Of a stretch of DNA of 22,473 nt, positions 352 to 15,711 are shown in pieces (position 1 is the stretch's first letter; every line of letters begins with the position of its first letter). The position numbers and the translations under genes are program-made. Below the pieces are notes generated by a model that was not told the origin of the DNA, did no database searches, and saw nothing but the letters and a program-made list of their open reading frames with translations. Origin of the DNA: a virus; the IMG/VR virus record IMGVR_UViG_3300011113_000693, positions 1-22,473 of that record. One strand, 5' to 3'.

Positions 352-1992
352 TTATTTTTTGGCTCTTGCTGTGGCCGTAGCATACATTACTTCTTTTGCT
401 TTGTCACCGTAACGTGCTTTGAAACCTTTTAGAGATTTTTTCATACCTTTAACGATACGCTCTTTCTCGGCAGTTTCGCCTTTGGTTAATGTGCGTTCAT
501 CAATCTGTTCAACTTCCTCTTTTGTCAATTTGCCAGTTGCTTTTACAACTTTATTACCATCACGGTCTTTTCCACCACGGAAACCAAACACTTTTACCTC
601 GGCTTTATCTATACCTTTTTCACGTTTTGCCATTAGTTTTTTTGCTGGCTCACGCATTTTTGCCACAGCATCACTGGCCGCTTTCAAATGCTTTTGTACT
701 TCAGGAGTGTTAATTGGATTTTTACCTCTTGAACCAAGCTGGATGCCTTTATTTGTTTTAGCCATCAACCTTTTTATTTTTTGATGTTCGTCTCCCATGT
801 CTATGTCCTTTTCAAGTGCGGCCGCATGGTTTCTTATGGCTTTTCCGTAATATCTATGCACAAGATTTTTAGACAGTTCATTCAACTGTTCAAATTCTTC
901 GGTTTGCATGAAGTTTTCAACATCTCCAATAGTAAATTCAAGTTCATTAATCTGTTCCACTTCTTCATTAGTTTTATTTTTTGAAGCGTATTTAGCGGCC
1001 GCATTTGTGAAAGCGGCATTGTGCTGATCCAAATGTTTTTGTAAATGTTTTACAACACCAGCTTGTAATGTTGCGTGTGCCCTTTTATCTGCCGAAGACA
1101 TTGAGTTTTGTTCATTGCTACGGCGATTGGCAGCTTGATTACTAGAAACTGGTGAGTGAGCATTAGCTAAATGGCCAGGTGTAAATGCTTTCTTAGCACG
1201 GTTTAGTGTTGATTCTATTGCAGAAGCATTCTTTGCATAATGTTTTGCAGAAGTTGGATTTGAAATTCCGTGAGCAGCGATTGTTTTTTTCACTAGTCTT
1301 TCTGCTGTGGTTTTTGCATCAGACAATGATACGGCTTCATCCAAATCTTCCGCTTCTTCTTTGACATTATCTGGAACATCCATCTTTACTTTCTTAGAAA
1401 GAAAAGGATTATTGGAAGTTTTCTCACGACCTTTTAGTGTATCAGTTGTTGTGTCATTTGGATCAATTTCTTCTTTTTTCATTGGCTCATCTTTAACAGG
1501 CTTTCTAGAATAGATAGTACCCGTAGAGACTTTCTTGGAATCAAAGCCGGCTTTTTCACCGGGTTTGGTGGGCAGTTGACTCTTATAGTTTTTAAGGTCA
1601 AAAGGATTATTTGATTCTTCAACATTTTCAGCTTCTTCTTTTACTTTATGCCTACTTTGTATTTTGTAGTTTGCTGTCTGAATGCCTTTGATTCTTTTTT
1701 CTTCTTTGTTTCTATCACCACCAATCAAGGCTTGATTTGCTTTTGTCTGATATCTTAGAAGTGTGGAAGTTTTAAGTTCATCTATCTGTTCTGCTTCTTC
1801 TTTCTTCATGCCTTTCTTTTCACCACGAAGAATGGCAAAATCATGTGCATCAATTTTATTGTTCTTATTCTTGTCAATCTTGTGTTGTTGACCTTTAAGT
1901 TCTTCCATTTTTGCTTTGTAATCAGCTTCAGCAATGTTTTTAATTGCATCAGCAACAGCATCAAACTTACCAAATTTATTATTAGTGAACAT
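352..1992 (-). CDS. Modular virion/core-like protein with repeated IDE/LDE/LNE sites and an EF-hand-like loop
   Basis: This 546-residue, Lys/Glu-rich protein looks like a chain of short modules joined by acidic linkers. The linkers contain IDE (70-72), LDE (217-219), INE (348-350), LNE (370-372) and IDE (497-499), mostly preceded by EEAE or EEVE. These match the [IL]-x-E site of T4 gp21-type prohead proteases. Two modules are related to each other: residues 72-112 and 372-419 share the pattern EL-x-(5-6)-RY-x(3)-A followed by a KRI/KRL and IQ segment. Residues 40-51 (DKNKNNKIDAHD) form a good EF-hand-type calcium loop. The C-terminus (KGFKARYGDKAKEVMYATA) resembles the end of many T4-like cyanophage proteins of unknown role. 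The ATG at 1992 has GGAG upstream. Cleavage into several peptides during head maturation is inference; a scaffold/core protein is the likeliest alternative. Confidence 0.85.
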   Translation of the reverse strand: MFTNNKFGKFDAVADAIKNIAEADYKAKMEELKGQQHKIDKNKNNKIDAHDFAILRGEKKGMKKEEAEQIDELKTSTLLRYQTKANQALIGGDRNKEEKRIKGIQTANYKIQSRHKVKEEAENVEESNNPFDLKNYKSQLPTKPGEKAGFDSKKVSTGTIYSRKPVKDEPMKKEEIDPNDTTTDTLKGREKTSNNPFLSKKVKMDVPDNVKEEAEDLDEAVSLSDAKTTAERLVKKTIAAHGISNPTSAKHYAKNASAIESTLNRAKKAFTPGHLANAHSPVSSNQAANRRSNEQNSMSSADKRAHATLQAGVVKHLQKHLDQHNAAFTNAAAKYASKNKTNEEVEQINELEFTIGDVENFMQTEEFEQLNELSKNLVHRYYGKAIRNHAAALEKDIDMGDEHQKIKRLMAKTNKGIQLGSRGKNPINTPEVQKHLKAASDAVAKMREPAKKLMAKREKGIDKAEVKVFGFRGGKDRDGNKVVKATGKLTKEEVEQIDERTLTKGETAEKERIVKGMKKSLKGFKARYGDKAKEVMYATATARAKK

Positions 1993-2007: not shown

Positions 2008-2319
2008 TTAGCAGTTCCATTTACGTAAAGATAGAGCTTTTCTGGTTGGACGACCCTTTTCATCCTTCATAGGACCTGGCATTCCACCCATTCTAGCACA
2101 GAAAGACTTTCTTCTATTGGCCGCTTTACTTCCAGGCTTTAATTTGGAAGGAGGTGTTGTTACGGCCATTGATAATTTTGAACCTGGATTTTCACGACGA
2201 TAGGAAGCAATACCTTTACGGTTCAAACCACCTTCTGGGTTTTTGCCTGCTTTTCTTTGCCATGCTGGCGATTTTTCATCCAAATTTTCTTCAGTGATGA
2301 ATTCTTTAAAAGTTTTCAT
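2008..2319 (-). CDS. Small conserved basic T4-like phage protein (DUF6321-like) with MKTF leader
   Basis: This 103-residue protein is rich in Lys, Arg and Gly and ends in RKWNC. The body, including the stretch WQRKAGKNPEGGLNRKGIAS and the later KAANRRKSFCARM, resembles a small family widespread in T4-like aquatic phages that I recall as DUF6321. Its function is unknown; the composition would suit nucleic-acid or virion binding. The N-terminus MKTFKEFITEENLDEKSP is close to the capsid-targeting leader of T4 internal proteins (T4 IPI begins MKTYQEFIAE) and contains two possible prohead-protease sites, ITE and LDE. Its ATG overlaps the stop of the preceding gene (ATGA), so the two are probably translationally coupled. 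Confidence 0.88.
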   Translation of the reverse strand: MKTFKEFITEENLDEKSPAWQRKAGKNPEGGLNRKGIASYRRENPGSKLSMAVTTPPSKLKPGSKAANRRKSFCARMGGMPGPMKDEKGRPTRKALSLRKWNC

Positions 2320-4223
2320 TTTTTATTCTTCTTTTTATTTGAATCCTGATTCAAAACTTTATCAGCCTGTGTTATCAACGGTTCTTTGTTAGAAGGACCA
2401 TATTCACCACCGGTAACTCCCATTTCTGTGCTAGGAGAATCAATTGATTCTTTTCTAAACTTCTTAAAAGATTTGCGTGTTACCTCTGCGGCACTGGTGT
2501 ATTTATTCTCTTTTTGTTCTCTATATGTAACATTTCCGAGACCAGACATGGGATAAACACTTCCCTGTGCGCGTGTATCGTATTCTGGGCTAACACCAGC
2601 AACATTTGTTACTTTGCCGCTTTGGCCTGACGGGGCTTTTTGTTTCCTGATTTTTTGCTTGTCGTTGTCTTGTTGGAAACGGGTTTCTTTTGGGTCTGGG
2701 TTTTTGGTGAGGGTTGGCTCTCCGGCTTCACTATAGGTTCTGAAGATGTAACTACTGTTTGACTTAGTGTCACCGTCTCTAACATCATCGGGGCGGCCGG
2801 CTTTTCTAGTAAGCTGGCAACTTGGGCAGATGTTGTCGTTGAGCTTGTATCGCTTGTACCCTGATACTTTTGAATATCCAGAGGATGTTTTGCAGGTGCA
2901 GGTTCCTTCGGCAAAAATAGTTTTGCGATTTGTTGTTTTATTTTCTGTAACATATTTTCTCTCCTTCAACGGATTTTTAATAAAAGATTCAAACACTTTG
3001 TTAATGTCATTTTTCTTGTGTTTTTCTAACCAAGATTCTGCAATTTCGTTTTCAACCGTTGCATCAAAGAACCAATTAGTCATTTCATAAACAATTGAAA
3101 TGTCTTCCTCTTTTTCAGCAAGTTCAAAAATTGTTGCTTCTGTTAGGTCTAATGAGTTGTCAAATTCCAAATATTTTGTAAATACTTCATTCAACTTTTC
3201 AGCAACTAATTGTGTTTTGTCCCATCTTTCTTGTCTAATTGATTCAGATAATACTCTTTCGTGATTATCGTTTCTTCTTTTTGAAGCTTCGTTTGTGGTG
3301 TTGACGAACACCATCATTGTTTCATAACCAAGTTCTTCCAATTCATTTTTAATTTCAATCATATTGAACTGTTCATTTGTCGTACCATTTATAATCAATG
3401 GCAATCTATTGCGAATGGCTTCTCTCCTAAAATCTTTGGAATGTTCGTAAAGTTTATGTTTATCATTTAAGATGCTAATAGCCAAAGTAGAATTTATCTC
3501 AACTGCATTACTTTCGGCTACTGCTTCACGAATGATAATATCTTTTCCTGAACCGGGACCACCACAAATGAATAGTGCTTTGAAAAGCCCATGATTTGTA
3601 CTTTCGTGTATACCCATACCCCTTCTCACATCACGGAAAAGTTCGCGTGTGTGCTTTTCTGGCACATGCTCTGGCACACCCATCTTAAAACTTTGAAATT
3701 CATTGTTCTTGGCATGTTCACGCATTTTAGATGCAGACATGCCCTCAACACCTTCTGAATCTGGGTCGCGTTGGCCAGCCGATTTCAATTCTATCTTTTT
3801 GAAATTGAAAAGTGCTTTTGGGTTCTGTTCTTTTGGTCCATTGTAATCATTTAGCCTCTTTTCATATTCCGGTATTCTATCCGAACCAGCAACCATGATT
3901 AGATGGTCATGACCGGCAGCATTTAGTCTTGCTGCGTGTTGTAAAAATGTTGGCAATTCTTTGCTGGATGTTTCAATATTGGCTCCAGGAAAAAATCTAC
4001 GGGCATGTTTTAACTTGGTCTTTGCATCAAGTGGATTTTTGTTTGCATCTGCCGAATGTGAAATAATCACATGGTGTGGAGCATTGTAATCTTTTGCAAT
4101 TTGTTTAACATGATTCACCAGCTTTTCGTGACCAACAGTGGGCGGATTCATCCTACCAAAAGCCATCACAACTGGACTTTTGGTTTGTAAATCTTCTTCA
4201 ACTTTTTCTAAGAATGTTTTCAT
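2316..4223 (-). CDS. NMNAT/cytidylyltransferase-like domain fused to P-loop kinase (NadR-like layout)
   Basis: This 635-residue protein has three parts. Residues 17-170 form an HIGH-superfamily nucleotidyltransferase: GRMNPPTVGH (23-32) supplies the (T/H)xGH motif, followed by VAGSDR (111-116) and GMSASKMR (161-168) in place of the usual SxTxxR signature. Residues 215-345 form a P-loop kinase resembling zeta-toxin or polynucleotide kinases, with Walker A GGPGSGKD (221-228) and an Arg-rich lid around 315-335. Residues 440-635 are a low-complexity tail with CxC (442-444) and CPSC (466-469) and a conserved-looking GRPDDVRDGD. NMNAT plus kinase is also the layout of bacterial NadR, so a role in NAD or nucleotide metabolism is possible; the substrate is not proven. 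The leader MKTFLEKVEEDL resembles a capsid-targeting sequence. Its ATG overlaps the upstream stop (ATGA). Its 3' third contains a probable second gene in another frame. Confidence 0.88.
   Translation of the reverse strand: MKTFLEKVEEDLQTKSPVVMAFGRMNPPTVGHEKLVNHVKQIAKDYNAPHHVIISHSADANKNPLDAKTKLKHARRFFPGANIETSSKELPTFLQHAARLNAAGHDHLIMVAGSDRIPEYEKRLNDYNGPKEQNPKALFNFKKIELKSAGQRDPDSEGVEGMSASKMREHAKNNEFQSFKMGVPEHVPEKHTRELFRDVRRGMGIHESTNHGLFKALFICGGPGSGKDIIIREAVAESNAVEINSTLAISILNDKHKLYEHSKDFRREAIRNRLPLIINGTTNEQFNMIEIKNELEELGYETMMVFVNTTNEASKRRNDNHERVLSESIRQERWDKTQLVAEKLNEVFTKYLEFDNSLDLTEATIFELAEKEEDISIVYEMTNWFFDATVENEIAESWLEKHKKNDINKVFESFIKNPLKERKYVTENKTTNRKTIFAEGTCTCKTSSGYSKVSGYKRYKLNDNICPSCQLTRKAGRPDDVRDGDTKSNSSYIFRTYSEAGEPTLTKNPDPKETRFQQDNDKQKIRKQKAPSGQSGKVTNVAGVSPEYDTRAQGSVYPMSGLGNVTYREQKENKYTSAAEVTRKSFKKFRKESIDSPSTEMGVTGGEYGPSNKEPLITQADKVLNQDSNKKKNKK
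2609..2953 (-). CDS. Probable overprinted gene nested in the NadR-like gene, 114 aa
   Basis: An ATG at 2953 opens a 114-codon frame shifted by one base relative to the surrounding 635-residue protein. It has a strong Shine-Dalgarno sequence, AAGGAG, seven bases upstream. The product starts with an amphipathic basic stretch (MLQKIKQQIAKLFLPKEPAP), continues as a Ser/Thr/Pro/Gln-rich linker, and ends in a Lys-rich tail (SKKSGNKKPRQAKAAK). Short proteins of this shape (helix, PA-rich linker, KK tail) are common in T4-like phages. Over this interval the outer frame uses C-ending codons far more than elsewhere (runs such as AAC GAC AAC ATC TGC), as expected if a second frame constrains it. No function is recognised. 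The alternative is a chance open frame, but the ribosome site argues against that. Confidence 0.6.
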   Translation of the reverse strand: MLQKIKQQIAKLFLPKEPAPAKHPLDIQKYQGTSDTSSTTTSAQVASLLEKPAAPMMLETVTLSQTVVTSSEPIVKPESQPSPKTQTQKKPVSNKTTTSKKSGNKKPRQAKAAK

Positions 4224-5413
4224 ATGTTTCTTATTCCGGCAAAATTTCTCTTAGAGAATTCGCTTCTATTTACAAATTTATCCGATTCTTTTCCATGATG
4301 AAAAACATAACCCTCTGGGTTTGCTGCTTCATCACCATGTTCATGTTTAAATTCTTGATGTTGATTCAATACATTGATAAGCACATTCTTAGCTTTCTGT
4401 ATGTGGTTATGCATCTTGAATAAATTATTATAATGTCTTCTATTTCTTTCAATTTTGTCCAACTCGGCAGAAAGTTCGTCTTGTTTGGCTTTTTTATTTT
4501 TTTCAACCTTTAGCTTATCAATTTCTTTATTCTTTTTGTTTTCTAACCAATTTTTGAAGTTTTGATGATTAGGTACTTCGCCACTTCTAACTGTGTGATT
4601 TATATAAGTTTCTAAGTGTCCACCAACACCCTGATGTGTTCCTGTTCCTGCGTACATATCATCACCGTGTGTGTCATGTACAGCTTTTGCTGCTGCTATA
4701 TGTTTTTGGAACTCTGCTCTTTCTTTTGGCCCAAAATGCACTTTTGAGGTGTCCATTCTTGGATCAACAGAAAAAACATCCGAATGTTGACCAAAATTTT
4801 CGTGATCTACTTCATGTGAAGCATTCAAACTGGCTGAATTTTTACCTTCATACGATAAATGTGTAACCAAGCCAATTTTAGCTTTCTTAGCTTTTGCACC
4901 ATGAGTTCCGGATGCTGTATATGTTATACCTGAAGGATTGGGTCTAAAAGACACTCCCTCTTTTGATGACTTTTTATCTTCGTCGGTGAACATCATATCA
5001 CCTTGATAAACACCTTTTTCTGGTGCAACTTTGGGTAAGTGTTTAAGTGCAGATTTAAGCTTTTCAACTAATCCAGGAGCATGACCGTGATTTCTCTCAA
5101 TGTCTGCTGGAGTGTAGTTTATTTTTGGTGTCTTGTTAAAAGCAGACTTGGAAGCAACAAAAAATTTACCACTTTCTGGGTGGTGCCCATAAACTATAGC
5201 TGGAGAACCATCGTATTTTGTTGTCAGTTCCGATGACTTTTTACCTTGCTGTATGTGTTGTGCAGCATTTTCCAGAGATGAGAAAGCATGTCTAGCACCC
5301 TTTTCTCCAGTCTGGAGTGGGCGGTCTTCTATGTGCGTTAGATGTTTTATTTGCCTGCTGGCACCTTCTTCTGGGTCCAGTTCTTCGTGCAAATATTGCA
5401 AAAATGGCTTCAT
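4220..5413 (-). CDS. Ligase-superfamily covalent nucleotidyltransferase-like protein (DUF6267-like)
   Basis: This 397-residue protein resembles a T4-like phage family I recall as DUF6267. The motifs of the covalent nucleotidyltransferase superfamily (DNA/RNA ligases and capping enzymes) appear in order: motif I TKYDGSPAIVYG with Lys66 as candidate nucleotide acceptor (KxDG, 66-69), a motif III-like VYQGDMMF (135-142), motif IV PEGYVFHH (366-373) and a motif V-like KFVNRSEF (379-386). A Lys/Glu coiled-coil-like stretch occupies about 285-345, just before motif IV, which is unusual. It could join or adenylylate nucleic acid or another nucleotide-linked substrate; this is inference. The leader MKPFLQYLHEELDPEE resembles the internal-protein leaders of the two downstream neighbours. 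The ATG has AGAGGA four bases upstream; the stop overlaps the NadR-like start (ATGA). Confidence 0.85.
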   Translation of the reverse strand: MKPFLQYLHEELDPEEGASRQIKHLTHIEDRPLQTGEKGARHAFSSLENAAQHIQQGKKSSELTTKYDGSPAIVYGHHPESGKFFVASKSAFNKTPKINYTPADIERNHGHAPGLVEKLKSALKHLPKVAPEKGVYQGDMMFTDEDKKSSKEGVSFRPNPSGITYTASGTHGAKAKKAKIGLVTHLSYEGKNSASLNASHEVDHENFGQHSDVFSVDPRMDTSKVHFGPKERAEFQKHIAAAKAVHDTHGDDMYAGTGTHQGVGGHLETYINHTVRSGEVPNHQNFKNWLENKKNKEIDKLKVEKNKKAKQDELSAELDKIERNRRHYNNLFKMHNHIQKAKNVLINVLNQHQEFKHEHGDEAANPEGYVFHHGKESDKFVNRSEFSKRNFAGIRNI

Positions 5414-5424
5414 TAAATCCTCTG

Positions 5425-5453
5425 AAATAGTACACTGTGACTATGTACTATTT
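5425..5453. repeat. Perfect 10-bp inverted repeat between glycan cassette and ligase-like gene
   Basis: AAATAGTACA at 5425-5434 and TGTACTATTT at 5444-5453 are perfect reverse complements separated by nine bases. On the minus strand the hairpin starts in the stop codon of the upstream gene and ends 12 bases before the AGAGGA ribosome site's ATG context of the ligase-like gene. No U-run follows it on either strand, so it is not a classic intrinsic terminator. It could be a protein operator, an RNA processing or attenuation element, or a scar at the cassette boundary. Confidence 0.7.
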
Positions 5454-6159
5454 AGTAGCCCCAGATTTTAATATCCACCCATTCTGACATATCTTCACGA
5501 ATAAGAGAGTGTCTTCCGCGATTAAAATTACCATCAACAAACGGATGATTTAAATCTAGTTTTTCCACCGTAACATGGAATTTATTCAACTGACTTTGTA
5601 TCATTTCATGTCCACATAGAACTACGCCGTTTTTGTAGTGTTGTTCTAGAAATAGAAATGTTGAAGCATAGACATTCATCGTATCAGAATCAGCTATGGC
5701 AAACTGGTCATTTAAAAGTGAAGGACCCTCAACATCTTTTGAAACATAGATTTTACCATGTTCTAATGAATCAAAATCTATGACTTTATTCAGTGCAAAA
5801 TCAAATCTGCTTCGGATAACATAGTCGTATCTAAATGCACCAAATACTTCATGTTTTACTCGGTATTCATTTGCAAGATTTATTGAGTAAAACATTGAGG
5901 TGCAGAAATTTGCAGGGTGCGAACCATTGGCCACTGTCATGTGGGAATTAACATTTGACGGTAACGAATAATCGTATGATGCTATTACCGGTTTGTACAG
6001 TTGACAAATATCGTCATATACAAAACTCTTAGAAGGATCACCTACCCATGTATGCAAAAAAACATCAACATCATATTTTTCAAGTAAATTTCTACTTATA
6101 AATTCAAATGCTTTTTTATAACTTCTGGGTTGACCCGATAGGCATAGTGCCAATTTCAT
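5452..6159 (-). CDS. Putative glycosyltransferase-like protein, paralogue of the 6607-7320 gene
   Basis: This 235-residue protein begins MKLALCLSGQPRSYKKAFEF and continues with DVDVFLHTW, YKPV and YDYVIRSRFDF. The same order (LLTGHMR, PDIFINTW, YKPV, YDVIIRMRPD) is present in the gene two places upstream, so the two are paralogues. The pattern of a short N-terminal beta strand with SGQxRS and a later RxRxD is typical of a family often found among phage and bacterial polysaccharide genes and usually taken to be GT-A-like transferases. The catalytic activity is not established. The ATG at 6159 lies 44 bases inside the 3' end of the GDPD-like gene, with GGAG ten bases upstream. The stop codon falls inside the inverted repeat at 5425-5453. 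Confidence 0.8.
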   Translation of the reverse strand: MKLALCLSGQPRSYKKAFEFISRNLLEKYDVDVFLHTWVGDPSKSFVYDDICQLYKPVIASYDYSLPSNVNSHMTVANGSHPANFCTSMFYSINLANEYRVKHEVFGAFRYDYVIRSRFDFALNKVIDFDSLEHGKIYVSKDVEGPSLLNDQFAIADSDTMNVYASTFLFLEQHYKNGVVLCGHEMIQSQLNKFHVTVEKLDLNHPFVDGNFNRGRHSLIREDMSEWVDIKIWGY

Positions 6160-6610
6160 TTACAAATTTCTCCACATATTTTGTACAAACTCCGGCAATA
6201 CTGTTATGACAATTTTTTGTCCATTCCCAATTTTCTGGTGTTCTTTCTGGCTGAACTGCTATGGAATTTCTTGTCAATTCTTTTCCAGGATAGGTCCAAA
6301 TAAATTGAGTGGATGTTAATGTGTAATCATCTTCTTGGTGCCAAAAATAATTAAATTTTATTGGCGTATATGACAGTACATATAGAGCATCAAGATTCTT
6401 GCAATGTAGCCATAGGCCGTGTTTACCGATAAACTCTGAAGTTGTTTTGTATTGTGGTTTGTCGTGACCCAACCACCATTCATTCTTTACAAACCAAACA
6501 TCAACTTCGCAATCATATCCTTTGGATAATGCAAGTTCAATTTGCTCAGGTGTATTTTCTTTTTCTAAATTTGGACCATTAAAAAGTCCACGATGAGCAA
6601 TTAAAATCAT
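6116..6610 (-). CDS. Short GDPD-like (glycerophosphodiester phosphodiesterase superfamily) protein
   Basis: The 164-residue product carries the hallmark residues of the GDPD TIM-barrel superfamily: HRG at 6-8, EN at 18-19, ExD at 35-37 and GHD at 48-50, giving two candidate catalytic histidines (His6, His49) and a metal-binding Glu/Asp set. It is shorter than classical GDPDs (roughly 240-300 residues), so the barrel is probably incomplete or minimal. It still has conserved-looking blocks after the catalytic core (WLHCKN, YFWHQEDD, IWTYPGK, SIAVQPE). In this sugar-gene setting it may act on a phosphodiester-linked glycan or glycerol phosphate; that is inference. The ATG overlaps the stop of the preceding gene (ATGA), and its own 3' end overlaps the next gene by 44 bases. 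Confidence 0.82.
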   Translation of the reverse strand: MILIAHRGLFNGPNLEKENTPEQIELALSKGYDCEVDVWFVKNEWWLGHDKPQYKTTSEFIGKHGLWLHCKNLDALYVLSYTPIKFNYFWHQEDDYTLTSTQFIWTYPGKELTRNSIAVQPERTPENWEWTKNCHNSIAGVCTKYVEKFVNEIGTMPIGSTQKL

Positions 6611-7320
6611 TGATATAAACTCTTATGTTTGTATTCACCCAAAGGCGTGTGCATAATTGTCTTGTTTACCATGAACTCTTGCCAAGGTAAACCCAACCGT
6701 TTGATAAAATGTTCCGAAATAACATGTGGGCATAATAGCCCGGTTTCTTTGTATAGATGTGGCAAATGATATAAAATTTTACAAAACAAACTCATTGTAA
6801 AAAAGTTTCCGACCTGAATCATGTCTGATGTTCCTTGACCCATATGATTTCTAAATCCTAAGGTGTAAAAACTATTCGGATCAAAATCGGGTAAAGGTTC
6901 ATTGAACACTAAATCTGGCCGCATACGGATTATAACATCATATATTTTACCTGTCAACATCATGTGTTCTTCAACAGCAAGCATACCTCGGCCAACCTTA
7001 AACCACATGGAAATCTGATTCTTGGGAACATGATAGAAATTGGTATATTCTTTGGCACGATATGAGAAATTTTCTTCAAATTCTTCGTATTTTTCAACAT
7101 TCATGTACACAGGTTTATAGGTACGTTGAATTGCATCAACATCTAAATTGGGACCACCTTCCGTTATACCCTTTGACGAATGTGGATCCCAATATGCTTC
7201 AGAATCCCATGTGTTAATAAAAATATCAGGCTCATATTTGTCTATGAAATGTTGTTTGGTATTTGGGAATACTTGTTCCCAACAACGCATATGACCAGTT
7301 AATAATAAAGCAACTCTCAT
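6607..7320 (-). CDS. Putative glycosyltransferase-like protein, paralogue of the 5452-6159 gene
   Basis: This 237-residue protein (from the ATG at 7320) begins MRVALLLTGHMRCWEQVFPN and shows PDIFINTWDSE, YKPVY and YDVIIRMRPDLVF. This is the same block order as the 235-residue gene downstream, so both belong to one putative GT-A-like transferase family in phage and bacterial polysaccharide loci. An in-frame GTG at 7323 would add one residue, but the ATG is preferred because it forms a TGATG overlap with the stop of the FkbM gene, and GAGAGGG lies just upstream. Acceptor and donor sugars cannot be read from the sequence. Confidence 0.8.
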   Translation of the reverse strand: MRVALLLTGHMRCWEQVFPNTKQHFIDKYEPDIFINTWDSEAYWDPHSSKGITEGGPNLDVDAIQRTYKPVYMNVEKYEEFEENFSYRAKEYTNFYHVPKNQISMWFKVGRGMLAVEEHMMLTGKIYDVIIRMRPDLVFNEPLPDFDPNSFYTLGFRNHMGQGTSDMIQVGNFFTMSLFCKILYHLPHLYKETGLLCPHVISEHFIKRLGLPWQEFMVNKTIMHTPLGEYKHKSLYQ

Positions 7321-7931
7321 CACACCCTCTCAAAGAAAATGTTGTCTTCGTTCACCTGAGAGGTTATGTTTGTAACAGTAAAACCATTTTTCTCAAGGAA
7401 GTCAAATGTTTCTTCTTTGGTATGCTGACCTTTATATAAACGCAAAGCGGCAGCCTGTGGCACTTCAACTACTCCGGACCTAACCATAGATATTTTTGAG
7501 CCTAAGCCTTTAAGCACCGCCAAGTCGGAGCCTTGAGCATCAATATGTAAATGGTCAATTTCGGTAACTTCAGGCATGAATATTTTGAGCCAAGATTCTA
7601 ATTTATACACATTTACTTTTATAGATTTTCTGACAACAAAATCGGTTCTACCTGGCCAAGTTTGTGCCAAATTATCATTGAATTCATTTAATGATGCCGA
7701 ACCGGTGTCGTTCTCAACCAAATGAAAAGAAGATTCTCCGTCATAATCCGAAATAGCGTGTTCATAAACTTTATATCTATCTGTAAATCCACCTTCTTTG
7801 GCAAGCCATCTTAATCTTGATGCAAGTTCTGGTGTAGGTTCAAATGCAACTACAATTGTATTTGGATCATCTTTTGCTATGTGTAAAGAATCTTGACCCC
7901 AATGTGCACCAACATCAAACAAATATTTCAT
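7320..7931 (-). CDS. FkbM-family SAM-dependent methyltransferase
   Basis: The 203-residue protein has the FkbM methyltransferase layout: a SAM-binding strand and glycine motif near the N-terminus (LFDVGAHWGQDS, 4-15), an acidic strand-2 end with AFEP (about 29-32), and the diagnostic IDAQGSDLAVLKG segment in the second half. FkbM enzymes are typically O-methyltransferases acting on sugars or polyketides, and related genes are frequent in phage and bacterial surface-glycan clusters. Within this cassette it most likely methylates a sugar hydroxyl added by the neighbouring transferases, which could cap or mask the glycan (inference). The gene begins two bases after the HAD/nucleotidyltransferase gene and its stop overlaps the next start. 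Confidence 0.9.
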   Translation of the reverse strand: MKYLFDVGAHWGQDSLHIAKDDPNTIVVAFEPTPELASRLRWLAKEGGFTDRYKVYEHAISDYDGESSFHLVENDTGSASLNEFNDNLAQTWPGRTDFVVRKSIKVNVYKLESWLKIFMPEVTEIDHLHIDAQGSDLAVLKGLGSKISMVRSGVVEVPQAAALRLYKGQHTKEETFDFLEKNGFTVTNITSQVNEDNIFFERV

Positions 7932-7933
7932 TT

Positions 7934-9316
7934 TTATTCCTTATGATTATCTAAGAAGTAATTCAAATCTTCTGGAGTTCCAATACCCCACATGCCTTCA
8001 ACATTTTTGACTCTGATTTTTTTGCCAGCACCGATTGCTTCATTGAAAACTGGGCAAACATAGAATTCATTATTCACACGAATATTTTTTGCGACCATCT
8101 GTTCAGCATATTTAACATAATCTGAACCGTGGCGCCAGTAATAAATTCCAACTGTTGCATTGTTTGATATAACTTTTTTCTCTGCAACTTCCGATACGAA
8201 ACCATTTTCATCCAGTTTTGCATATGACCATTTTGGATGTGTGGCTTCAAATGTGAGAATACCACCATCAATAGAATCTGCTGAGAAAGCGTACATGCAT
8301 TCGTTTGAGTTCCATTCAACAAATTGGTCAGAGTTTGCCATGACTAGTGGTGCATCGTTATCTATGTGTTCTTTAGCTAACAAAGTGGTACACGCTGCAC
8401 CTTCAGTTAATCCGTCAACCTGAACAATTTTGCAGCCAGGTGCAATCAGATTCAACAGATATTTGAGATTGTATTTTTCATAATGTTCTTTTTGAACTAA
8501 GAATATGTAATTGGCTTCAATATTCAAATTTTCTACCACAAGTTGAATCATTGGTTTTCCACGAACTTCAATAAGAGGTTTGGGAAAAGTGTAACCAACA
8601 GCAGAAAACCTAGAACCGGCACCGGCCATCGGAATCAAAACATTCAATTTATTATCTCGCCATGGTAGAGATTTTTTACTTTTACCTTCAATCGTATTCA
8701 TAAGATCATAAATCCTTTGCATCATATGTTCGCTATTCACTTCTTGTGCATTTTCAACTGGTAATAAATGTGCACCAGAATCTAAAGCACCTTGCCTTCC
8801 TATATGACTATCTTCAATAATGATTGTATTTTTAGGAAGAACATTTAAAGCTGTCATGCATTTCCAGTACATTTCTGGATATGGCTTTGCTCTACCTACA
8901 TCCTCATTACTGACAAAATAATCAACTTCTTCAATCAGACCAATACTTATGAGTGATAATTTTACTGTCTCACGAATAGAATTGGATGCAACCGCAATTT
9001 TGTATCCTTTAGATTTTATCTTTCTGAACATTGTTTGCAGCCAATATTCTTTTTTGAACCCACGGACAATATTGAATGTGGCTTCCTGTTTGTCATTCCA
9101 AATTTTATCATATTCAGAAACAGGAAGACCTTTTCTTTCGGTCAACATCTTGAGTTTTCTTGTGGTATTCAAACCATCATATAAGCTCAAGTGTTCTTCT
9201 CGGGAAATAACATATTTTTCACCGACTTTTCTCAGTGCATCGTTTAGTGCATCATAATGTATTTCTCTTGAATCAATCAAGACACCATCAAGGTCAAAGA
9301 TTACTAATTTATTCAT
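7934..9316 (-). CDS. HAD phosphatase fused to sugar nucleotidyltransferase
   Basis: This 460-residue fusion has two domains. Residues 1-210 are a HAD hydrolase of the beta-phosphoglucomutase/phosphatase type: DLDGVL (8-13, Asp8 nucleophile and Asp10), VASNS (109-113), Lys144 in GRAKPYPEMY, and IIEDS (166-170). Residues 223-460 are a nucleotidyltransferase of the sugar-1-phosphate type: IPMAGAGSRF (228-237) followed by FPKPL (244-248), with ANSDQF as the likely metal-binding segment and a terminal MWGIGTPEDL block. Such an enzyme could make an activated NDP-sugar and handle a phosphosugar in one polypeptide. Base and sugar specificity are unknown. The start overlaps the HtrL-like gene by eight bases. 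It is probably the donor-supplying enzyme of the cassette. Confidence 0.9.
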   Translation of the reverse strand: MNKLVIFDLDGVLIDSREIHYDALNDALRKVGEKYVISREEHLSLYDGLNTTRKLKMLTERKGLPVSEYDKIWNDKQEATFNIVRGFKKEYWLQTMFRKIKSKGYKIAVASNSIRETVKLSLISIGLIEEVDYFVSNEDVGRAKPYPEMYWKCMTALNVLPKNTIIIEDSHIGRQGALDSGAHLLPVENAQEVNSEHMMQRIYDLMNTIEGKSKKSLPWRDNKLNVLIPMAGAGSRFSAVGYTFPKPLIEVRGKPMIQLVVENLNIEANYIFLVQKEHYEKYNLKYLLNLIAPGCKIVQVDGLTEGAACTTLLAKEHIDNDAPLVMANSDQFVEWNSNECMYAFSADSIDGGILTFEATHPKWSYAKLDENGFVSEVAEKKVISNNATVGIYYWRHGSDYVKYAEQMVAKNIRVNNEFYVCPVFNEAIGAGKKIRVKNVEGMWGIGTPEDLNYFLDNHKE

Positions 9317-10139
9317 GTTTATTAAACTTCCTCAATATTGATCTAACATCTTCAATTGGAGCATCTAACGGCATCTTATGCAGTTCATATTTTTCTGGCT
9401 TCATGAAGTAAGAACTTAAAAGAAGCCCCTGGTCATCATCAACAAGTTTATTGTCCATCAACATTTCTAATGACTTTTTCATATCAACTTCAAGCATTTT
9501 CCATTGATCTTTTTCTCCAACAAAAACACCGCCAATTATGTATACGATGTTGTTTAAGACGGCTAGTTGAATTTGTTCAAGCTTACGATCAAGTACAGGA
9601 TCTCTATAATTAAAGTAATGCATTTTTCCCGGAGTAAAATCATATTCCCATTTCTTGGATACAGGAACATGTTCACTATCACGACAGTAACCAAAATCTA
9701 CCCATGCAGCCCATTCATTTGTAATAAGACCTTTTTCAAAAGCATCGGACACATAAAATGCTTTGAGTGATGTTACGCCAACATAGTCTTTAGACCAGTA
9801 TTCTGGGTTTCTAACTTGATAGGGATTTATTCGGCGTGTAAACTCAGGTGAACTTTGAATTGCTTCAATCTTATCACGGAGTTCTTGATGTAAATTAAAG
9901 TAATCATATTCAACTACTTTAACATTTGGTGAAATTGCGGCTAAGTGAGGCGCAATATCCGAAGAAGTGTAGACAATAATTTCGGTGTCAATTTCACACA
10001 TGCGCGTGAAATGGTCTATGTACTTATCAACAGACCTTTGCAAATAATGTGGAAGTGGACCACCATTTTTCTGAACTGATGTTGACCAATCACCACGACC
10101 AATGTCATAGAATGCAGTTACGATGCTAATTTTGCTCAT
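9309..10139 (-). CDS. HtrL/YibB (WlaTC)-like putative glycosyltransferase
   Basis: The 276-residue protein opens with ISIVTAFYDIGRGDW and later has an AAWVDFGYCRD segment, the two signatures I associate with the HtrL/YibB/WlaTC family. That family occurs in lipopolysaccharide and capsule loci of Gram-negative bacteria and in phages. The VDFG block sits where GT-A enzymes have their metal-binding DxD, so a transferase fold is likely, but no activity is known to me for the family. It lies 23 bases after the preceding gene, with a late-promoter-like TATAAATC in the gap, and overlaps the next gene by eight bases. Confidence 0.85.
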   Translation of the reverse strand: MSKISIVTAFYDIGRGDWSTSVQKNGGPLPHYLQRSVDKYIDHFTRMCEIDTEIIVYTSSDIAPHLAAISPNVKVVEYDYFNLHQELRDKIEAIQSSPEFTRRINPYQVRNPEYWSKDYVGVTSLKAFYVSDAFEKGLITNEWAAWVDFGYCRDSEHVPVSKKWEYDFTPGKMHYFNYRDPVLDRKLEQIQLAVLNNIVYIIGGVFVGEKDQWKMLEVDMKKSLEMLMDNKLVDDDQGLLLSSYFMKPEKYELHKMPLDAPIEDVRSILRKFNKHE

Positions 10140-10162
10140 TTCAAAATCCCATATTTATTAAA

Positions 10163-11047
10163 TTATGATTTATATAAAAAGTATTTAGGTGAAGTGCCGG
10201 TATTGGTCTCGGCCGTGATGTTTATTCCAAATTTTTTGCTGAAATGTTCCATCCATTTTGGATCACGATCATATTGATGTATGATTGTAAATGAAATTCC
10301 GTCAGAATTGCAAATCAAACCGTCATCGTTCATATGCGGCCTTTTTTCCAATAAATATGAATCCAGTTTACCAATCAAATCTGGTTTATTTGTAACATGC
10401 AGGTTTGCGTTCCAAGCATCTTTCAATTCCGTAAAGAGTGTTGCATCATACCATGGACCAAAGGCGAGTAACATGTTATACGCCGCCTGGTCGGCTACCC
10501 AATCTGCACGATTGGAAGAAAATTGGTATAGTTGGAAACATAGATCACGAATTGCATTTGCTTTTCCAGCCAAGACACCCACATTGTATACGGTATTGTC
10601 TTTCACTTTATTGTAAAAATATTCACCAAAATTTTTACGAATATTTTCACGGTTCCATTCTTCATTTTCAACTTTAATTGCTTCGCTTGATGCAATGATG
10701 TTTTTGTCTTTTAAATTTTTCTCTAAAAATTCTATAGGGTTCTTTTGGAAAATAACATCACGAACATCTGTTGAAATCACATAACGATACTTGTTGGCAT
10801 TTGTATTAAGAAAATCAAAAATATAAATGAAACGCAACATGTGAATCATCATGTTGTTTTCACTGGGTACAGACATAACAATTACACCCTCTTGTTTCAA
10901 TTTATCACACAATTTTTGGCTTGTATTAATAGCAAATAAAACCGTATCACCCTCAAAACCTGAATCTTTGATAGATTGCACCCAAGGTTTTAAAACATCG
11001 TAGTCAGTATACTTATTGAAAGCACCAATAATTAAATCTTTCGCCAC
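10163..11047 (-). CDS. GT-A-like putative glycosyltransferase, GTG start
   Basis: This 294-residue protein starts with an N-terminal beta-strand pattern (DLIIGAFNKYTDYD). It has YRYVISTDVRDVIFQKNP near residue 90, where DVRD looks like the metal/nucleotide-binding motif of GT-A glycosyltransferases, followed by conserved-looking WVADQAAYN. No transmembrane segment is visible. The best start is a GTG at 11047: it has GGAG seven bases upstream and no nearby in-frame ATG fits as well. The gene overlaps the GT2 gene by 16 bases. Sugar donor and acceptor are unknown. It is likely one of the successive transferases of the cassette. Confidence 0.8.
   Translation of the reverse strand: MAKDLIIGAFNKYTDYDVLKPWVQSIKDSGFEGDTVLFAINTSQKLCDKLKQEGVIVMSVPSENNMMIHMLRFIYIFDFLNTNANKYRYVISTDVRDVIFQKNPIEFLEKNLKDKNIIASSEAIKVENEEWNRENIRKNFGEYFYNKVKDNTVYNVGVLAGKANAIRDLCFQLYQFSSNRADWVADQAAYNMLLAFGPWYDATLFTELKDAWNANLHVTNKPDLIGKLDSYLLEKRPHMNDDGLICNSDGISFTIIHQYDRDPKWMEHFSKKFGINITAETNTGTSPKYFLYKS
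10167..10174 (-). promoter_or_regulatory. Possible T4-type late promoter, TATAAATC
   Basis: On the minus strand the gap before the HtrL-like gene contains TATAAATC, one base away from the T4 late-promoter element TATAAATA. Transcription would start about 10-15 bases downstream, leaving a leader of roughly 25 bases before the ATG at 10139. AT-rich DNA produces such octamers by chance, so this is only a candidate. If real, it would let the second half of the glycan cassette be expressed late. Confidence 0.3.
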
Positions 11048-11763
11048 GGGTATTCTCCATTCATATTATTTTTCATCACTTCATTACCTTTTACAAAGAA
11101 ACTACCTTGTACTGAGTCCTCACGACTTGCCACTCTATAGTTTACACTGTATTGACCATTCGTGTCAAATTTTGGCAAATTTTTCATCATAAAAGCCGAA
11201 AGTATTCTATCAACTTCTGGTTGTTCTTGTGGATGCCTCGCTCGGCGGTACCAGTAAGGTGAAAAATGAACAGCGGCCATTTTTGGTATCATAAAGCAAT
11301 TCACATCGATAAAATTATCATTCAATACAGATTTCCATTTACCAAGAGATTCACAATCATCATTACATATATATTCACCTTCCTGGTTAACTATTTTGCG
11401 GAGAGAATATGACCAATCATTACCTTGTTGGATGACATCCATAAGAGATTCAATATGATTATCTTCATACCAATTGTCTTGGTCCAAGAAACAAATATAA
11501 TCACCTTCAGCAATGAATGACATTGCACCATAGATTCTATGACCATTATATTGGTTATATCCTGTATTGTATGGAAGCGCGAATGCGGTGGAACGTGTTG
11601 CACCCACCATTGCTTGCGTGATCCTAACACCATACTTGTTAAAGCCATCTACCACAACTAAATGTTGTAAATTTTGATAGGTTTGTCTGTCTATAGATTT
11701 CAGTACATCATTTAATTGGTCACTTGCCGTAGTCGGCGTAATGACCGTCACTAGTGGATTCAT
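11032..11763 (-). CDS. Family 2 glycosyltransferase
   Basis: The 243-residue protein has the standard GT2 (GT-A fold) N-terminus: VTVITPT (5-11), SIDRQTYQNLQHLVVVDG (23-40), and the DxD metal/nucleotide-binding motif CFLDQDNWYED at 91-101 (Asp94 and Asp96). There is no membrane anchor, so it is a soluble cytoplasmic enzyme. The catalytic-base region lies further on, near the HPQEQPEVD stretch, and is less clear. It is the first gene of the glycan cassette in transcription order, starting one base after the stop of the 93-residue replication-operon gene and overlapping the next gene by 16 bases. It probably transfers a sugar onto a surface or virion acceptor. The target cannot be read from sequence. 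Confidence 0.9.
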   Translation of the reverse strand: MNPLVTVITPTTASDQLNDVLKSIDRQTYQNLQHLVVVDGFNKYGVRITQAMVGATRSTAFALPYNTGYNQYNGHRIYGAMSFIAEGDYICFLDQDNWYEDNHIESLMDVIQQGNDWSYSLRKIVNQEGEYICNDDCESLGKWKSVLNDNFIDVNCFMIPKMAAVHFSPYWYRRARHPQEQPEVDRILSAFMMKNLPKFDTNGQYSVNYRVASREDSVQGSFFVKGNEVMKNNMNGEYPWRKI

Positions 11764-11764
11764 T

Positions 11765-12046
11765 CTAACTCCTGGTCAATTTCAAAATTTTAGTTATCTG
11801 TGCTTCAATTGCAGTTTTGCGATTTGGCCAATATATGTATTCTTTGTCGGCCGTCTTTAATAACTTCGTCAAGAACGGTAAAATAAGCTTTTCAACTTCG
11901 GTCAATTTAGCTTTATAAGCATCTGCGGTTTCTGCGGTCTCATTAATAACTTTATTGTAGTCATCTTCTGAAACAGCAGAGAAACCAAAATCATCAGAGT
12001 CGTCAAACTCGTTAAGTATTTTTTGTATGTCTAGGTCTAGTGGCAT
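11765..12046 (-). CDS. Conserved small T4-like phage protein of unknown function
   Basis: A 93-residue acidic protein. The N-terminal third is Asp/Glu-rich (DIQKILNEFDDSDDFGFSAV), the middle is helical, and the C-terminus carries EYIYWPNRKTAIEAQITKIL. I recognise that KxYIxWPNR pattern as conserved in small proteins of T4-like cyanophages, but I know of no function. Its ATG overlaps the stop of the nuclease-like gene upstream (TAATG). It closes the replication operon before the glycan cassette begins, which marks the likely left edge of the ancestral replication block. Confidence 0.82.
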   Translation of the reverse strand: MPLDLDIQKILNEFDDSDDFGFSAVSEDDYNKVINETAETADAYKAKLTEVEKLILPFLTKLLKTADKEYIYWPNRKTAIEAQITKILKLTRS

Positions 12047-12957
12047 TATGGTCTTTCAACTATTACTACATTTTTATTGATTCGTTTTGCATAAGCAGCA
12101 AGAATTCTTATGCCAGGATATTCTTTAATGCTTTTTCTTGTTTTATCGTTTCTGATAAGGAAATAAACATCTTTGTCACCCTTAACATCTTTCATATCAG
12201 TAATGATACTACTCACATCAATGATAACTGAATCTTCTTGCATATCAAAAGAACTTTTTGAAAATGTTTTAGTTATAATACAACCGTTTGGTAAAATATC
12301 TGAGCCGAAAACAACATCTTTTTTTTCTGCCGATGAGGCTTCAACAGCAATGTTAGGTTCAATTGTAAAATAAGTTGTTTGTGGTATGAGTTTTGTTTTA
12401 CCTGCTTTGACTGCCATATCAATTATTTTTTTTGCTTCGGTGCCAAAATATGAATCAGCGGATTCCCAATATTCTGCATCATCTTTTTTAATACTAATTG
12501 GAAAAACTTTATTTTTGTAATCTATTAAATTTACATCCGATTTTTTTCTACCTGCGGTATCAGCACCGGCAGATACTGCTTCAACACAACCAAAAACTTC
12601 AAAAGTTTTATTTCCATTCATAAAAAATACATTGACTGGTCCAGTTTTTGCGGCACTGTTAATATAATCAACCAACATTTGTTCATTGTCCACACCCGCG
12701 CTTGCTTTGCCTTGTTTACTTGCAGGTTTGGCAAATACACTGAAATTACCAATTTTTACAAAACCAACAGATGATGCTGATGATGGAGTTTTATTGTACA
12801 TTGAACCTTTTATATTTTTATGTACTTTTTCCAAAGCATCAACTCTATTAATATCTACTAATATAGCGATTTTATTAGTAGATATTTTTTTCTGTTTATC
12901 AAAACCCATTGATGAAAGTGTTACGCTTAAACTTTCAAATGTAAAATTTATTGCCAT
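12046..12957 (-). CDS. Possible PD-(D/E)XK-type nuclease-like protein next to the helicase
   Basis: The 303-residue protein is not a textbook family member. Its middle contains a plausible PD-(D/E)XK nuclease core: a helical NEQMLVDYIN with Glu92, then KKSDVNLID with Asp141, then a strand ending PISIKKD with Lys157, where the usual Glu/Gln is replaced by Ser155. The spacing and the following AEYWESADSYF resemble phage proteins sometimes annotated as restriction-endonuclease-like. If active, it could process replication or recombination intermediates, or degrade host DNA. It sits 31 bases after the gp41 helicase gene, and its stop overlaps the next start. Loss of the canonical acid could also mean it is an inactive DNA-binding relative. 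Confidence 0.6.
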   Translation of the reverse strand: MAINFTFESLSVTLSSMGFDKQKKISTNKIAILVDINRVDALEKVHKNIKGSMYNKTPSSASSVGFVKIGNFSVFAKPASKQGKASAGVDNEQMLVDYINSAAKTGPVNVFFMNGNKTFEVFGCVEAVSAGADTAGRKKSDVNLIDYKNKVFPISIKKDDAEYWESADSYFGTEAKKIIDMAVKAGKTKLIPQTTYFTIEPNIAVEASSAEKKDVVFGSDILPNGCIITKTFSKSSFDMQEDSVIIDVSSIITDMKDVKGDKDVYFLIRNDKTRKSIKEYPGIRILAAYAKRINKNVVIVERP

Positions 12958-12988: not shown

Positions 12989-14380
12989 TCATACCTTCAA
13001 TCCTCCAAATTTATTTTTGGGGAATTCACGGGTACCAAATGTGTTCAAAGGTTTGTCTTGTTTACCAGAATCTGCAATACCATATTGTGCATCTTGTTCA
13101 ACATCATAAAGCCTCATCTTAGACCTGTCAATACCCAAAACAAATCTTTTGTGTGCTGTTGGATCAGAATAACGGTTCTTCAACTGTTTGACCATGATCT
13201 GATTCAATGCTTCCATTTCTTCAGAAGCAATCAAAGCAAACATCAAGTCTGCTGTCGCTGGCAAACCAAAAGACTCACTTGTGTCTTCCAGTCCGGGGTC
13301 GGAAGAAGTAAAGCCACTTCTTGTTGTTTGTGTTGCAGATACAATTGGTACTCCGAACTCAACGGCAAGACCTCGCAACTCCTCTGCGATGGCTTTAACA
13401 TATGTATAGGAATTAACATTGGCTCCTGCTTTGATTCTGGCGCTACAGCATATATTAAGATAGTCAATGAAAATAATGTCCGGAACAAAGTTCCTTTTGA
13501 GGTTGAGTTCATTTAAAAGTGTCCTAAAATGTATGGACGAAGCAGATGCTGTTGGATACTCTTTGATAATCAGCTTTCCTGTCGTCATCTCTTTGACACG
13601 GTTAACTTTTTTATCATACATATCTTTGGGCAGTTGCATCAGGTCATCAATTGAAACATTCAATAGATTTGCATCAATCCTTTCTGCAATCTTTTCTTCA
13701 GCCATTTCCATTGTTATGTATAACACATTCTTACCTTGTGTCATACAACCTGCTGCGACATGACACATGAACAACGATTTACCAACGCCAGTACCTGCAA
13801 GAGCAATATTCAAAGTCTTTGCAGGCAAACCACCTTTGGTAATTTTGTTGAAATATTCAAGATCAAAAGGAATTCTTTCCTCTTTACGGTGATAGAAATC
13901 ATATCTCTCATCATAGTCTTCCAAATAATCATGACCAACAGATGAATCAAAACTTACGGCCAAAGCATCAGAAAGAATTTTTGGAATTGCGCCTTTGTCC
14001 TGTGCCTTGTCTTTTCCATCAAGAATAGAAATAGAACCTAGAACCGCATTGTAAATAGCTTTTTCTTGGCAGAACTTTTCTGTCTTGTCAATTAGCCATT
14101 GTATTTCTGTTTTCTCCGCAGGCGGAGTTTCCAGTTCTTTAAGTGCAGTTTCGCATTTTTCAACTTCATCATTTGTAAGATTGCGTTTCTCTTTTAGAGA
14201 AAGTTCCAACGCTTCTGTGGTCGGAGGGTTATTATATTCATTCGTGAAGTCAGTAATCTCTTTAAAGATTGCCTTTTCTGCTCTATCACTGAAGTATTCA
14301 TCTTTAAGAAAGGGTAGAACTTTCCTTAAATAGTCTTCATTGTGAATCAAGTTCCTCAGAATAGTTTGTTCCAGCCTCAT
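12989..14380 (-). CDS. 41: gp41 replicative DNA helicase (DnaB-like)
   Basis: This is the 463-residue replicative helicase that unwinds the fork as a hexamer on the lagging strand. The N-terminal helical domain occupies about 1-110. The RecA-like motor has Walker A (GTGVGKS, about 196-202), the DnaB-type glutamate (ITMEMAEEK, about 225), Walker B (IIFIDYLN, about 302-309), and an ATQTTRSGF segment matching motif H4. Its length is close to T4 gp41 (about 475). The ATG at 14380 is preferred to the TTG one codon upstream because AGG lies eight bases before it. The start lies inside the end of the preceding gene (44-base overlap). The order uvsX, small gene, 41 matches T4-like cyanophages. Confidence 0.95.
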   Translation of the reverse strand: MRLEQTILRNLIHNEDYLRKVLPFLKDEYFSDRAEKAIFKEITDFTNEYNNPPTTEALELSLKEKRNLTNDEVEKCETALKELETPPAEKTEIQWLIDKTEKFCQEKAIYNAVLGSISILDGKDKAQDKGAIPKILSDALAVSFDSSVGHDYLEDYDERYDFYHRKEERIPFDLEYFNKITKGGLPAKTLNIALAGTGVGKSLFMCHVAAGCMTQGKNVLYITMEMAEEKIAERIDANLLNVSIDDLMQLPKDMYDKKVNRVKEMTTGKLIIKEYPTASASSIHFRTLLNELNLKRNFVPDIIFIDYLNICCSARIKAGANVNSYTYVKAIAEELRGLAVEFGVPIVSATQTTRSGFTSSDPGLEDTSESFGLPATADLMFALIASEEMEALNQIMVKQLKNRYSDPTAHKRFVLGIDRSKMRLYDVEQDAQYGIADSGKQDKPLNTFGTREFPKNKFGGLKV

Positions 14381-14669
14381 CAATTAATCCTTTATCTAAA
14401 TTTGCTGACATAATATTGACCAGAATATCACCAATGTAATTCTTAAACTCGGAACTTTTTTCCAGTTCTTCCTTGTTCAGTGGAGTTTCTAGTATATTAT
14501 AGACGAATTGAAGATAGATGGCACCATCTTTTTCTTCTTGAAATTTGACTTTGCCGTATTGATACACGGTATCCAAAAATTCACCTTTTAGTATTTTAAT
14601 TCCAACTGTAGTATTCTCATCATTTGGAATCACATAGTTGAAATCTATACCCTCTTTAAACTGGTTCAT
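14337..14669 (-). CDS. Conserved T4-like protein between uvsX and gene 41
   Basis: A 110-residue acidic protein containing the blocks IKILKGEFLDTVYQYGKVKF and, later, EFKNYIGDILVNIM. I recognise a similar small protein at this position, between uvsX and gene 41, in T4-like cyanophages, but know of no assigned function. Because it is coupled to both recombinase and helicase it may be an accessory to replication or recombination (inference). It overlaps uvsX by 14 bases at its start and gene 41 by 44 bases at its end, an unusually tight arrangement that suggests coupled translation. Confidence 0.85.
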   Translation of the reverse strand: MNQFKEGIDFNYVIPNDENTTVGIKILKGEFLDTVYQYGKVKFQEEKDGAIYLQFVYNILETPLNKEELEKSSEFKNYIGDILVNIMSANLDKGLIDEAGTNYSEELDSQ

Positions 14670-15711
14670 CTTCTACCTCTATTTCTTCTTTGATAATTTC
14701 ACCGGCAGCAACACGATATTTTTCTTCAATGAATTTTCTGAAGCTTTCTGTTTTTAGAATAGGTAACCAAAAGTCTTTTGTGTCAGTATCTTTGATTCGG
14801 TATTTTTTATCTTCTACTTCACCGGAGGAAACATCCACTTTGCTGTACCACCCATTTGAGGGTTTGATGACATGCCCGGATTCAAGTGCAATATCAAGTA
14901 GGCCTGACCACTTGCTAATACCACCATCAAAAGATACAGTAACAGGGATTTTAGATTTTTCTTTAACATATCTACTCTTTTCTACATTAATGATAAAATT
15001 ATAACCAACAATTTCGGTTCCTTCTTTTTCTTGTTGGCGACCAATGATAAAGATATTGTCGGCTGAATAGTAAGAACCTGTGCCGCCACCAACAATATCT
15101 TTCGGAAACATACCAATTTCTTTGTATGTATGATTGACAACAACCATTGGAATATCTTTAAGTGACAGATGTGGTGTAACCATACGGAACAAAGACTTAA
15201 CTTGTTTTGCACGGCTCATATCTGCAACAGATTTTCCCTCAAGTGCATCATCAACTTCTTTTTTAGAAGCTAAATTACCAATTGAGTCAATAACAATAAT
15301 TAATCTCTCACCACGCTCAAGATTGGTCAACTGTTGCATAACATCAAACTTTAACTGTTCAATGTCAGTGAGTGGTGTGTGAAGAACACGATCAGTATCA
15401 ATACCAAAGCTATCAAAATAACTCTGTGGAGTACCGAACTCACTATCATAAAACAACAAAGCCGAATCTGGATATTTGTCTAGATAAGATTTTGCCATCA
15501 AAAGTGAGAAAGCTGTCTTGAAATGCTTTGAAGGTCCTGCCCACATTGTTAAACCTGGTGTTAGACCACCATCCAATTTACCACTCAATGCAACATTGAT
15601 AATCGGAATGGAGGTTTGAATCATATCCTTATCAAGAAAGAATTTTGATTTGGATAGAATAGCCGATTCTTTGATGCTGCTGTTCTTTTTAATTTTGTCT
15701 AAAATACTCAT
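14656..15711 (-). CDS. uvsX: UvsX RecA-like recombinase
   Basis: The 351-residue protein is the phage strand-exchange recombinase. The ATP site is clear: Walker A GPSKHFKT (59-66), which is the T4 UvsX-type variant rather than the RecA GxxxxGKT form; the catalytic-glutamate segment FYDSEFG with Glu91; and Walker B LIIVIDSIG. Loop regions with VVNHTYKEIG and GGGTGSYYSAD match the DNA-binding loops. It is somewhat shorter than T4 UvsX (about 390), mainly at the C-terminus, which ends in an acidic tail (EEIEVEDEPV) as in T4. The ATG at 15711 lies 11 bases after the polymerase stop, with AAGGAAA just upstream. It loads on ssDNA for recombination-dependent replication and repair. Confidence 0.95.
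   Translation of the reverse strand: MSILDKIKKNSSIKESAILSKSKFFLDKDMIQTSIPIINVALSGKLDGGLTPGLTMWAGPSKHFKTAFSLLMAKSYLDKYPDSALLFYDSEFGTPQSYFDSFGIDTDRVLHTPLTDIEQLKFDVMQQLTNLERGERLIIVIDSIGNLASKKEVDDALEGKSVADMSRAKQVKSLFRMVTPHLSLKDIPMVVVNHTYKEIGMFPKDIVGGGTGSYYSADNIFIIGRQQEKEGTEIVGYNFIINVEKSRYVKEKSKIPVTVSFDGGISKWSGLLDIALESGHVIKPSNGWYSKVDVSSGEVEDKKYRIKDTDTKDFWLPILKTESFRKFIEEKYRVAAGEIIKEEIEVEDEPV

Follow-up and report, generated by a model that had tools for sequence, protein, structure and literature searches.

Capsid targeting by an N-terminal leader, and the identification of T-even internal proteins through such leaders, are already known (PMC12373910, PMC9026906). Genetic work on T4 IPIII assigned residues 4 and 7 to targeting and residues 8 and 10 to processing, with cleavage after L/I-x-E (PMC9026906). 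NMNATs have been reported in the virions of the cyanophages S-SM1 (PMC3037559), S-SCSM1 (PMC9602691), S-SZBM1 (PMC9146016) and S-CREM2 (PMC10665884). Here we examine an operon in the IMG/VR virus record IMGVR_UViG_3300011113_000693 (positions 1 to 22,473; this whole 22.5-kb fragment is referred to as the window), which derives from a T4-like marine phage. Three consecutive genes on its minus strand, for a DUF6321 protein, an NMNAT-kinase fusion and a DUF6267 protein, begin with leaders resembling those of the T4 internal proteins, and we put the probability that these genes specify internal proteins packaged in the head of this phage at about 0.82.

The three starts, which a first-pass annotation had picked out as T4 internal-protein-like, are indeed present, and the genes and their leaders are arranged as follows:

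2008-2319, minus strand: DUF6321 gene, 103 amino acids (PF19846, E=4e-24, above the Pfam cut-off), with PHROG families in common with S-CREM2 ORF137
2316-4223, minus strand: NMNAT-like plus P-loop kinase gene, 635 amino acids (phrog_3041 cytidyltransferase, E=1e-63; fold matches)
4220-5413, minus strand: DUF6267 gene, 397 amino acids (PF19782, E=6e-94, above the Pfam cut-off)
2290-2319, minus strand: leader MKTFKEFITE of the DUF6321 gene, predicted cleavage after I-T-E
4194-4223, minus strand: leader MKTFLEKVEE of the NMNAT-kinase gene, a weaker match with Lys at 7 and a V-E-E site
5384-5413, minus strand: leader MKPFLQYLHE of the DUF6267 gene, predicted cleavage after L-H-E

The genes are joined by ATGA overlaps at 2316-2319 and 4220-4223, and are therefore probably translated as one operon. 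T4 ipII and ipIII start MKTYQEFIAE and ipI starts MKTFKEF, and a regular expression for the T4 leader matches all three window genes; a looser form of the expression adds a single further match in the window, at an ATG inside a short plus-strand frame that runs antisense to a minus-strand gene. The targeting residues are F4 and F7 in the DUF6321 gene and F4 and Y7 in the DUF6267 gene, and the NMNAT gene agrees in part, with F4 but K7. The [IL]-x-E trimming site that the first-pass annotation had named for T4 internal proteins is canonical at residues 8-10 of two genes (ITE and LHE) and non-canonical in the NMNAT gene (VEE), whose leader is a weaker match because of V-E-E and the Lys at position 7. 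In T4 itself, the 54-residue hypothetical protein gp61.1 (T4 positions 18966-19130, minus strand) starts MKTFKEFIKE, a full internal-protein leader, and could be an internal protein of T4 not yet recognised as one.

The leaders recur among homologues, which were gathered with hidden Markov models. The strict form of the expression, M-[KRQ]-x-[FYLMI]-x-x-hydrophobic-hydrophobic-x-E, is found in 36/138 DUF6267 and 39/152 NMNAT homologues, against 3/6062 internal methionines of control open reading frames (ORFs) and 13/887 other long ORFs. The looser form, which permits one residue fewer ahead of the first aromatic, is found in 83/138 DUF6267, 54/152 NMNAT and 18/96 DUF6321 homologues against 28/887 control ORFs, the DUF6321 frequency being biased upward because the viral scan used a leader-derived pattern among others. 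The corresponding Fisher values (6e-60, 3e-29 and 4e-8, respectively) are only indicative, since relatives are not independent. Several of the 28 control matches look like additional leader-bearing proteins, and six relatives together contain 12 instances of the leader pattern and none of the reversed pattern.

In the sharpest test no expression is imposed and residues are simply counted in extensions running from the most upstream ATG, 9-45 residues ahead of the conserved domain. Among 85 distinct DUF6267 extensions, aromatic residues occupy position 4 in 86% and position 7 in 89%, position 8 is aliphatic in 88% and position 10 is Glu in 82%, with no comparable preference at positions 3, 5, 6 and 9. 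These constrained positions, 4, 7, 8 and 10, coincide with the targeting and processing residues of T4. NMNAT extensions are weaker (aromatic at 4 in 59%, aliphatic at 8 in 65%, Glu at 10 in 53%), and position 7 is often Lys in the clade of the window NMNAT, whose leader is for both reasons the least certain of the three. The coincidence bears out the resemblance to T4 leaders noticed in the first-pass annotation, and the assignment of the window leaders to the T4 capsid-targeting type is supported.

Such a segment could instead be an ordinary helix of each enzyme's fold or oligomer interface, the enzymes being made and acting in the infected cell and never packaged. Indeed, in the model of the window NMNAT a helix at residues 4-13 runs directly into the first strand, and the extension length is constant among close NMNAT relatives. 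The same pattern, however, stands on unrelated proteins and has linkers of varying length, its constrained positions are the T4 targeting positions, and in the AlphaFold2 (AF2) model of the window DUF6267 protein (mean predicted local distance difference test score, pLDDT, 90.7) residues 5-19 are disordered and lie outside the well-predicted fold. We therefore regard the helix explanation as improbable and favour a leader that is a module of its own.

Published virion proteomes bear directly on packaging. For S-CREM2, 52 virion proteins have been published together with their coordinates (PMC10665884), and exactly four ATG-initiated ORFs of S-CREM2 carry the strict leader: ORF6 (S-adenosylmethionine (S-AdoMet) hydrolase), ORF13, ORF136 and ORF154 (NMNAT). 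All 4/4 are in the list of proteins detected by mass spectrometry (hypergeometric 0.003). ORF14, an APH-like kinase with a GTG start, begins VKRFDAFLTE and constitutes a fifth leader, and the Cas9-like ORF12 has LRFASFMAE|A slightly internally; both are virion-listed too. These Cas9-like and APH-like proteins with leader-like N-termini lie at S-CREM2 positions 7704-10313 and 10579-12846, both on the minus strand. Because ORF136 and ORF154 were known before the pattern was fixed, the fresh evidence from S-CREM2 is ORF6, ORF13 and ORF14. The virion-reported NMNATs of S-SM1, S-SCSM1, S-SZBM1 and S-CREM2 carry the leader in 4/4 cases, and S-CREM2 ORF137, also virion-detected, has a DUF6321 domain and belongs to the same PHROG families as the window DUF6321 gene.

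The virion NMNATs might alternatively be carry-over of abundant infected-cell proteins and so uninformative about packaging, a concern raised by the authors of two of the proteomes; few peptides were indeed counted (3 for S-CREM2, 2 for S-SZBM1). Yet NMNAT was seen in four T4-like phages, and the other strict-leader proteins of S-CREM2 were all detected, which makes carry-over very improbable. In S-CBWM1, a non-T4 cyanophage, the virion NMNAT is leaderless, so virion presence without a leader occurs in another head type.

The leader has the distribution of a module and stands on unrelated proteins. A scan of IMG/VR with the exact DNA pattern returned at least 124 matches, at least 94 of them with no other start codon upstream. 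Of the matches listed, 101 ORFs belong neither to the three families nor to the kinase; 47 of these group in a single cluster represented by an S-AdoMet lyase (PF23780), and the other bearers include a lysozyme and a methyltransferase. This lyase cluster (the plus-strand ORF at 4015-4725 of its own record and 46 similar ones) and the S-CREM2 virion protein ORF6 are members of one family; a literature search for S-AdoMet lyase in virions found no paper. Where DUF6267 is fused to NMNAT (12 ORFs, 11 distinct listed), the leader, if present, stands only at the front of the chain. We lean towards the view that the T4-type leader serves marine T4-like phages as an all-purpose tag for delivering varied injected enzymes (NMNAT, DUF6267, S-AdoMet lyase, APH-like kinase and others), in which case the leader alone would predict unknown genes acting in the first moments of infection.

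Several observations weigh against packaging of the set. The first-pass annotation had named enzymes conserved without their leader among the findings that would count against the set, and this is found in part, since MSKNTHLEHLED-type DUF6267 clades and leaderless NMNAT clades exist; the leader nevertheless recurs on many unrelated families. The window NMNAT leader itself is atypical (Lys7, V-E-E), and two of the four S-CREM2 leaders (ORF136 and ORF154) were known before the expression was fixed. Furthermore, S-SCSM1 ORF30 bears the leader yet lacks a virion label, the virion lists examined do not include DUF6267 itself, and the S-SM1 and S-SZBM1 copies of DUF6267 are without leader. The head-delivered set put forward by the first-pass annotation stands for the families, where leader-bearing NMNAT homologues and a DUF6321-domain protein occur in published virions and delivery is well supported, and for this phage packaging, cleavage and injection are inferred. 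Leader residues 4 and 7 would dock each protein onto the prohead core during assembly, a gp21-type prohead protease would trim it after Glu10 of the [ILV]-x-E site, and the mature proteins would be retained inside the capsid and pass into the cell together with the DNA. Such a protease (PF03420) is encoded in 4/4 large relatives; the window fragment itself is without such a gene.

The NMNAT/kinase fusion recognised in the first-pass annotation is supported by NMNAT-type motifs and fold followed by a P-loop kinase:

3609-4181, minus strand: NMNAT-like domain, residues about 15-205, with TxGH and SxSKMR motifs intact
3144-3590, minus strand: P-loop kinase domain, residues about 212-360, with GGPGSGKD and Thr246

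The gene matches phage cytidyltransferase families, with AAA_33 just under the Pfam cut-off. The active-site motifs (H/T)xGH and SxSxxR are invariant in 56 homologues, PF01467 is found in 44/56 of them, and the fold matches of this part are NaMN adenylyltransferases. The kinase part has fold matches to polynucleotide kinases, and its homologues match Zeta_toxin (49/56), AAA_33 (35/56) and AAA_28 (1/56). At position 246, where the window has Thr, 28/56 homologues have an Asp that is probably the general base, absent from the window protein. The label "NadR-like" did not hold: no NadR model matched, the kinase is of another, zeta-toxin/polynucleotide-kinase-like family, and the probable catalytic Asp is missing.

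The DUF6267 protein is probably a covalent nucleotidyltransferase, judging from its conserved residues. The motifs K66xDG, QGD137-139, EGxV367-370 and K379-x-V-x-R383 are invariant in 55/55 homologues (the V in 54), in the order typical of covalent nucleotidyltransferases. For the ligase superfamily named in the first-pass annotation, motifs I (KxDG) and IV (EGxV) and the downstream Lys speak in favour, but neither fold nor profile searches bore it out: Foldseek of the model against the PDB gave no match at E<=0.001, only meaningless ones, hhalign against T4 Rnl2 homologues gave no match, and viral RNA and DNA ligases match below threshold only. A full-text literature search found no paper that names DUF6267. 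Its recurrent partnership is with NMNAT, adjoining or fused, the kinase being optional.

One phage pathway for reconstituting nicotinamide adenine dinucleotide (NAD), NARP2, consists of Nampt and NMNAT. We tentatively propose that, as infection begins, the set acts in NAD or nucleotide chemistry, in which the NMNAT-like enzyme would maintain or rebuild NAD from nicotinamide mononucleotide (NMN) or nicotinic acid mononucleotide (NaMN), with DUF6267 as its nucleotidyltransferase partner. A packaged set could instead serve nucleic-acid end repair, a polynucleotide kinase-like domain and a ligase-like DUF6267 countering tRNA- or DNA-cutting defences; the kinase fold matches, the KxDG and EGxV motifs and the sub-threshold viral ligase matches all fit such a role. 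The kinase, however, lacks its probable general-base Asp in the window, neither the NMNATs of the virion-tested cyanophages nor the DUF6267-NMNAT fusions contain it, and DUF6267 has no profile match to T4 Rnl2, so that we consider end repair somewhat unlikely, and only slightly less probable than the NAD role.

Around the operon that we propose to encode injected proteins, the following features were recognised, the last three from a reading of the ORFs:

352-1992, minus strand: next gene downstream of the operon, for a 546-residue protein with six EE[AVF]E[NQD][ILV][DEN]E motifs and I-A-E|A at residues 20-23
12989-14383, minus strand: gp41-like, a T4-like replication gene
14656-15711, minus strand: UvsX-like, a T4-like replication gene
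15723-18245, minus strand: DNA polymerase, a T4-like replication gene

All six motifs of the 352-1992 protein, against a mean of 0.0035 in shuffled sequences, end in an [ILV]-x-E that resembles a prohead-protease site, and similar motifs occur in related phages, including once each in S-SCSM1 ORF89 and ORF92, which are labelled virion proteins. Its repeats suggest a probable further head protein, which may be a head polyprotein cut into several pieces; a weak EF-hand-like match was also found. The replication genes are in the same order as in HTVC008M. Between the helicase region and the leader-gene operon lies a sugar-related block (5452-11763, minus strand) with a glycosyltransferase-like gene, a HAD plus nucleotidyltransferase fusion and a methyltransferase-like gene. 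At 18647-21242 on the plus strand, two overlapping ORFs have signal-peptide-like starts, the first (350 residues) consisting mostly of Asn/Thr/Val repeats. A search of the window for the late-promoter pattern NATAAATA gave 4 matches, below chance expectation.

Cyanophage papers have repeatedly met a virion NMNAT and could not tell cargo from contamination; the leader offers a packaging mechanism, and it predicts peptides starting after residue 10, which are testable in existing spectra. It also opens a way to recognise injected proteins of marine phages from sequence, S-AdoMet lyase being the commonest cargo among the matches listed, and turns DUF6267 into a testable enzyme candidate. In the open-access literature we found no paper applying the leader approach to marine phages, which is weak evidence of absence.

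Compared with described systems, the middle gene resembles NadR (NMNAT plus ribosylnicotinamide kinase) in having a P-loop kinase behind an NMNAT-like domain, but the kinase is of another family and its probable catalytic Asp is missing. The window DUF6267 gene is a full-length member of DUF6267 (PF19782)/phrog_455, a family elsewhere fused to NMNAT, although many of its cyanophage members are leaderless. With the cyanophage virion NMNAT/cytidyltransferase (T4-GC190) the window protein shares a homologous NMNAT domain and a genome region after gp41, and the leader is present in the four virion-tested members; the window protein differs by its additional P-loop kinase, its C-terminal extension and its less typical leader. 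T4 IPI-IPIII have bodies that are small inhibitors, whereas two of the three proteins here are large and enzyme-like, are encoded in one operon and are predicted to be packaged; in common with IPI-IPIII, the window proteins have a ten-residue leader with aromatic residues at 4 and 7, an aliphatic residue at 8, Glu at 10 and an [IL]-x-E site, and an unrelated body behind it.

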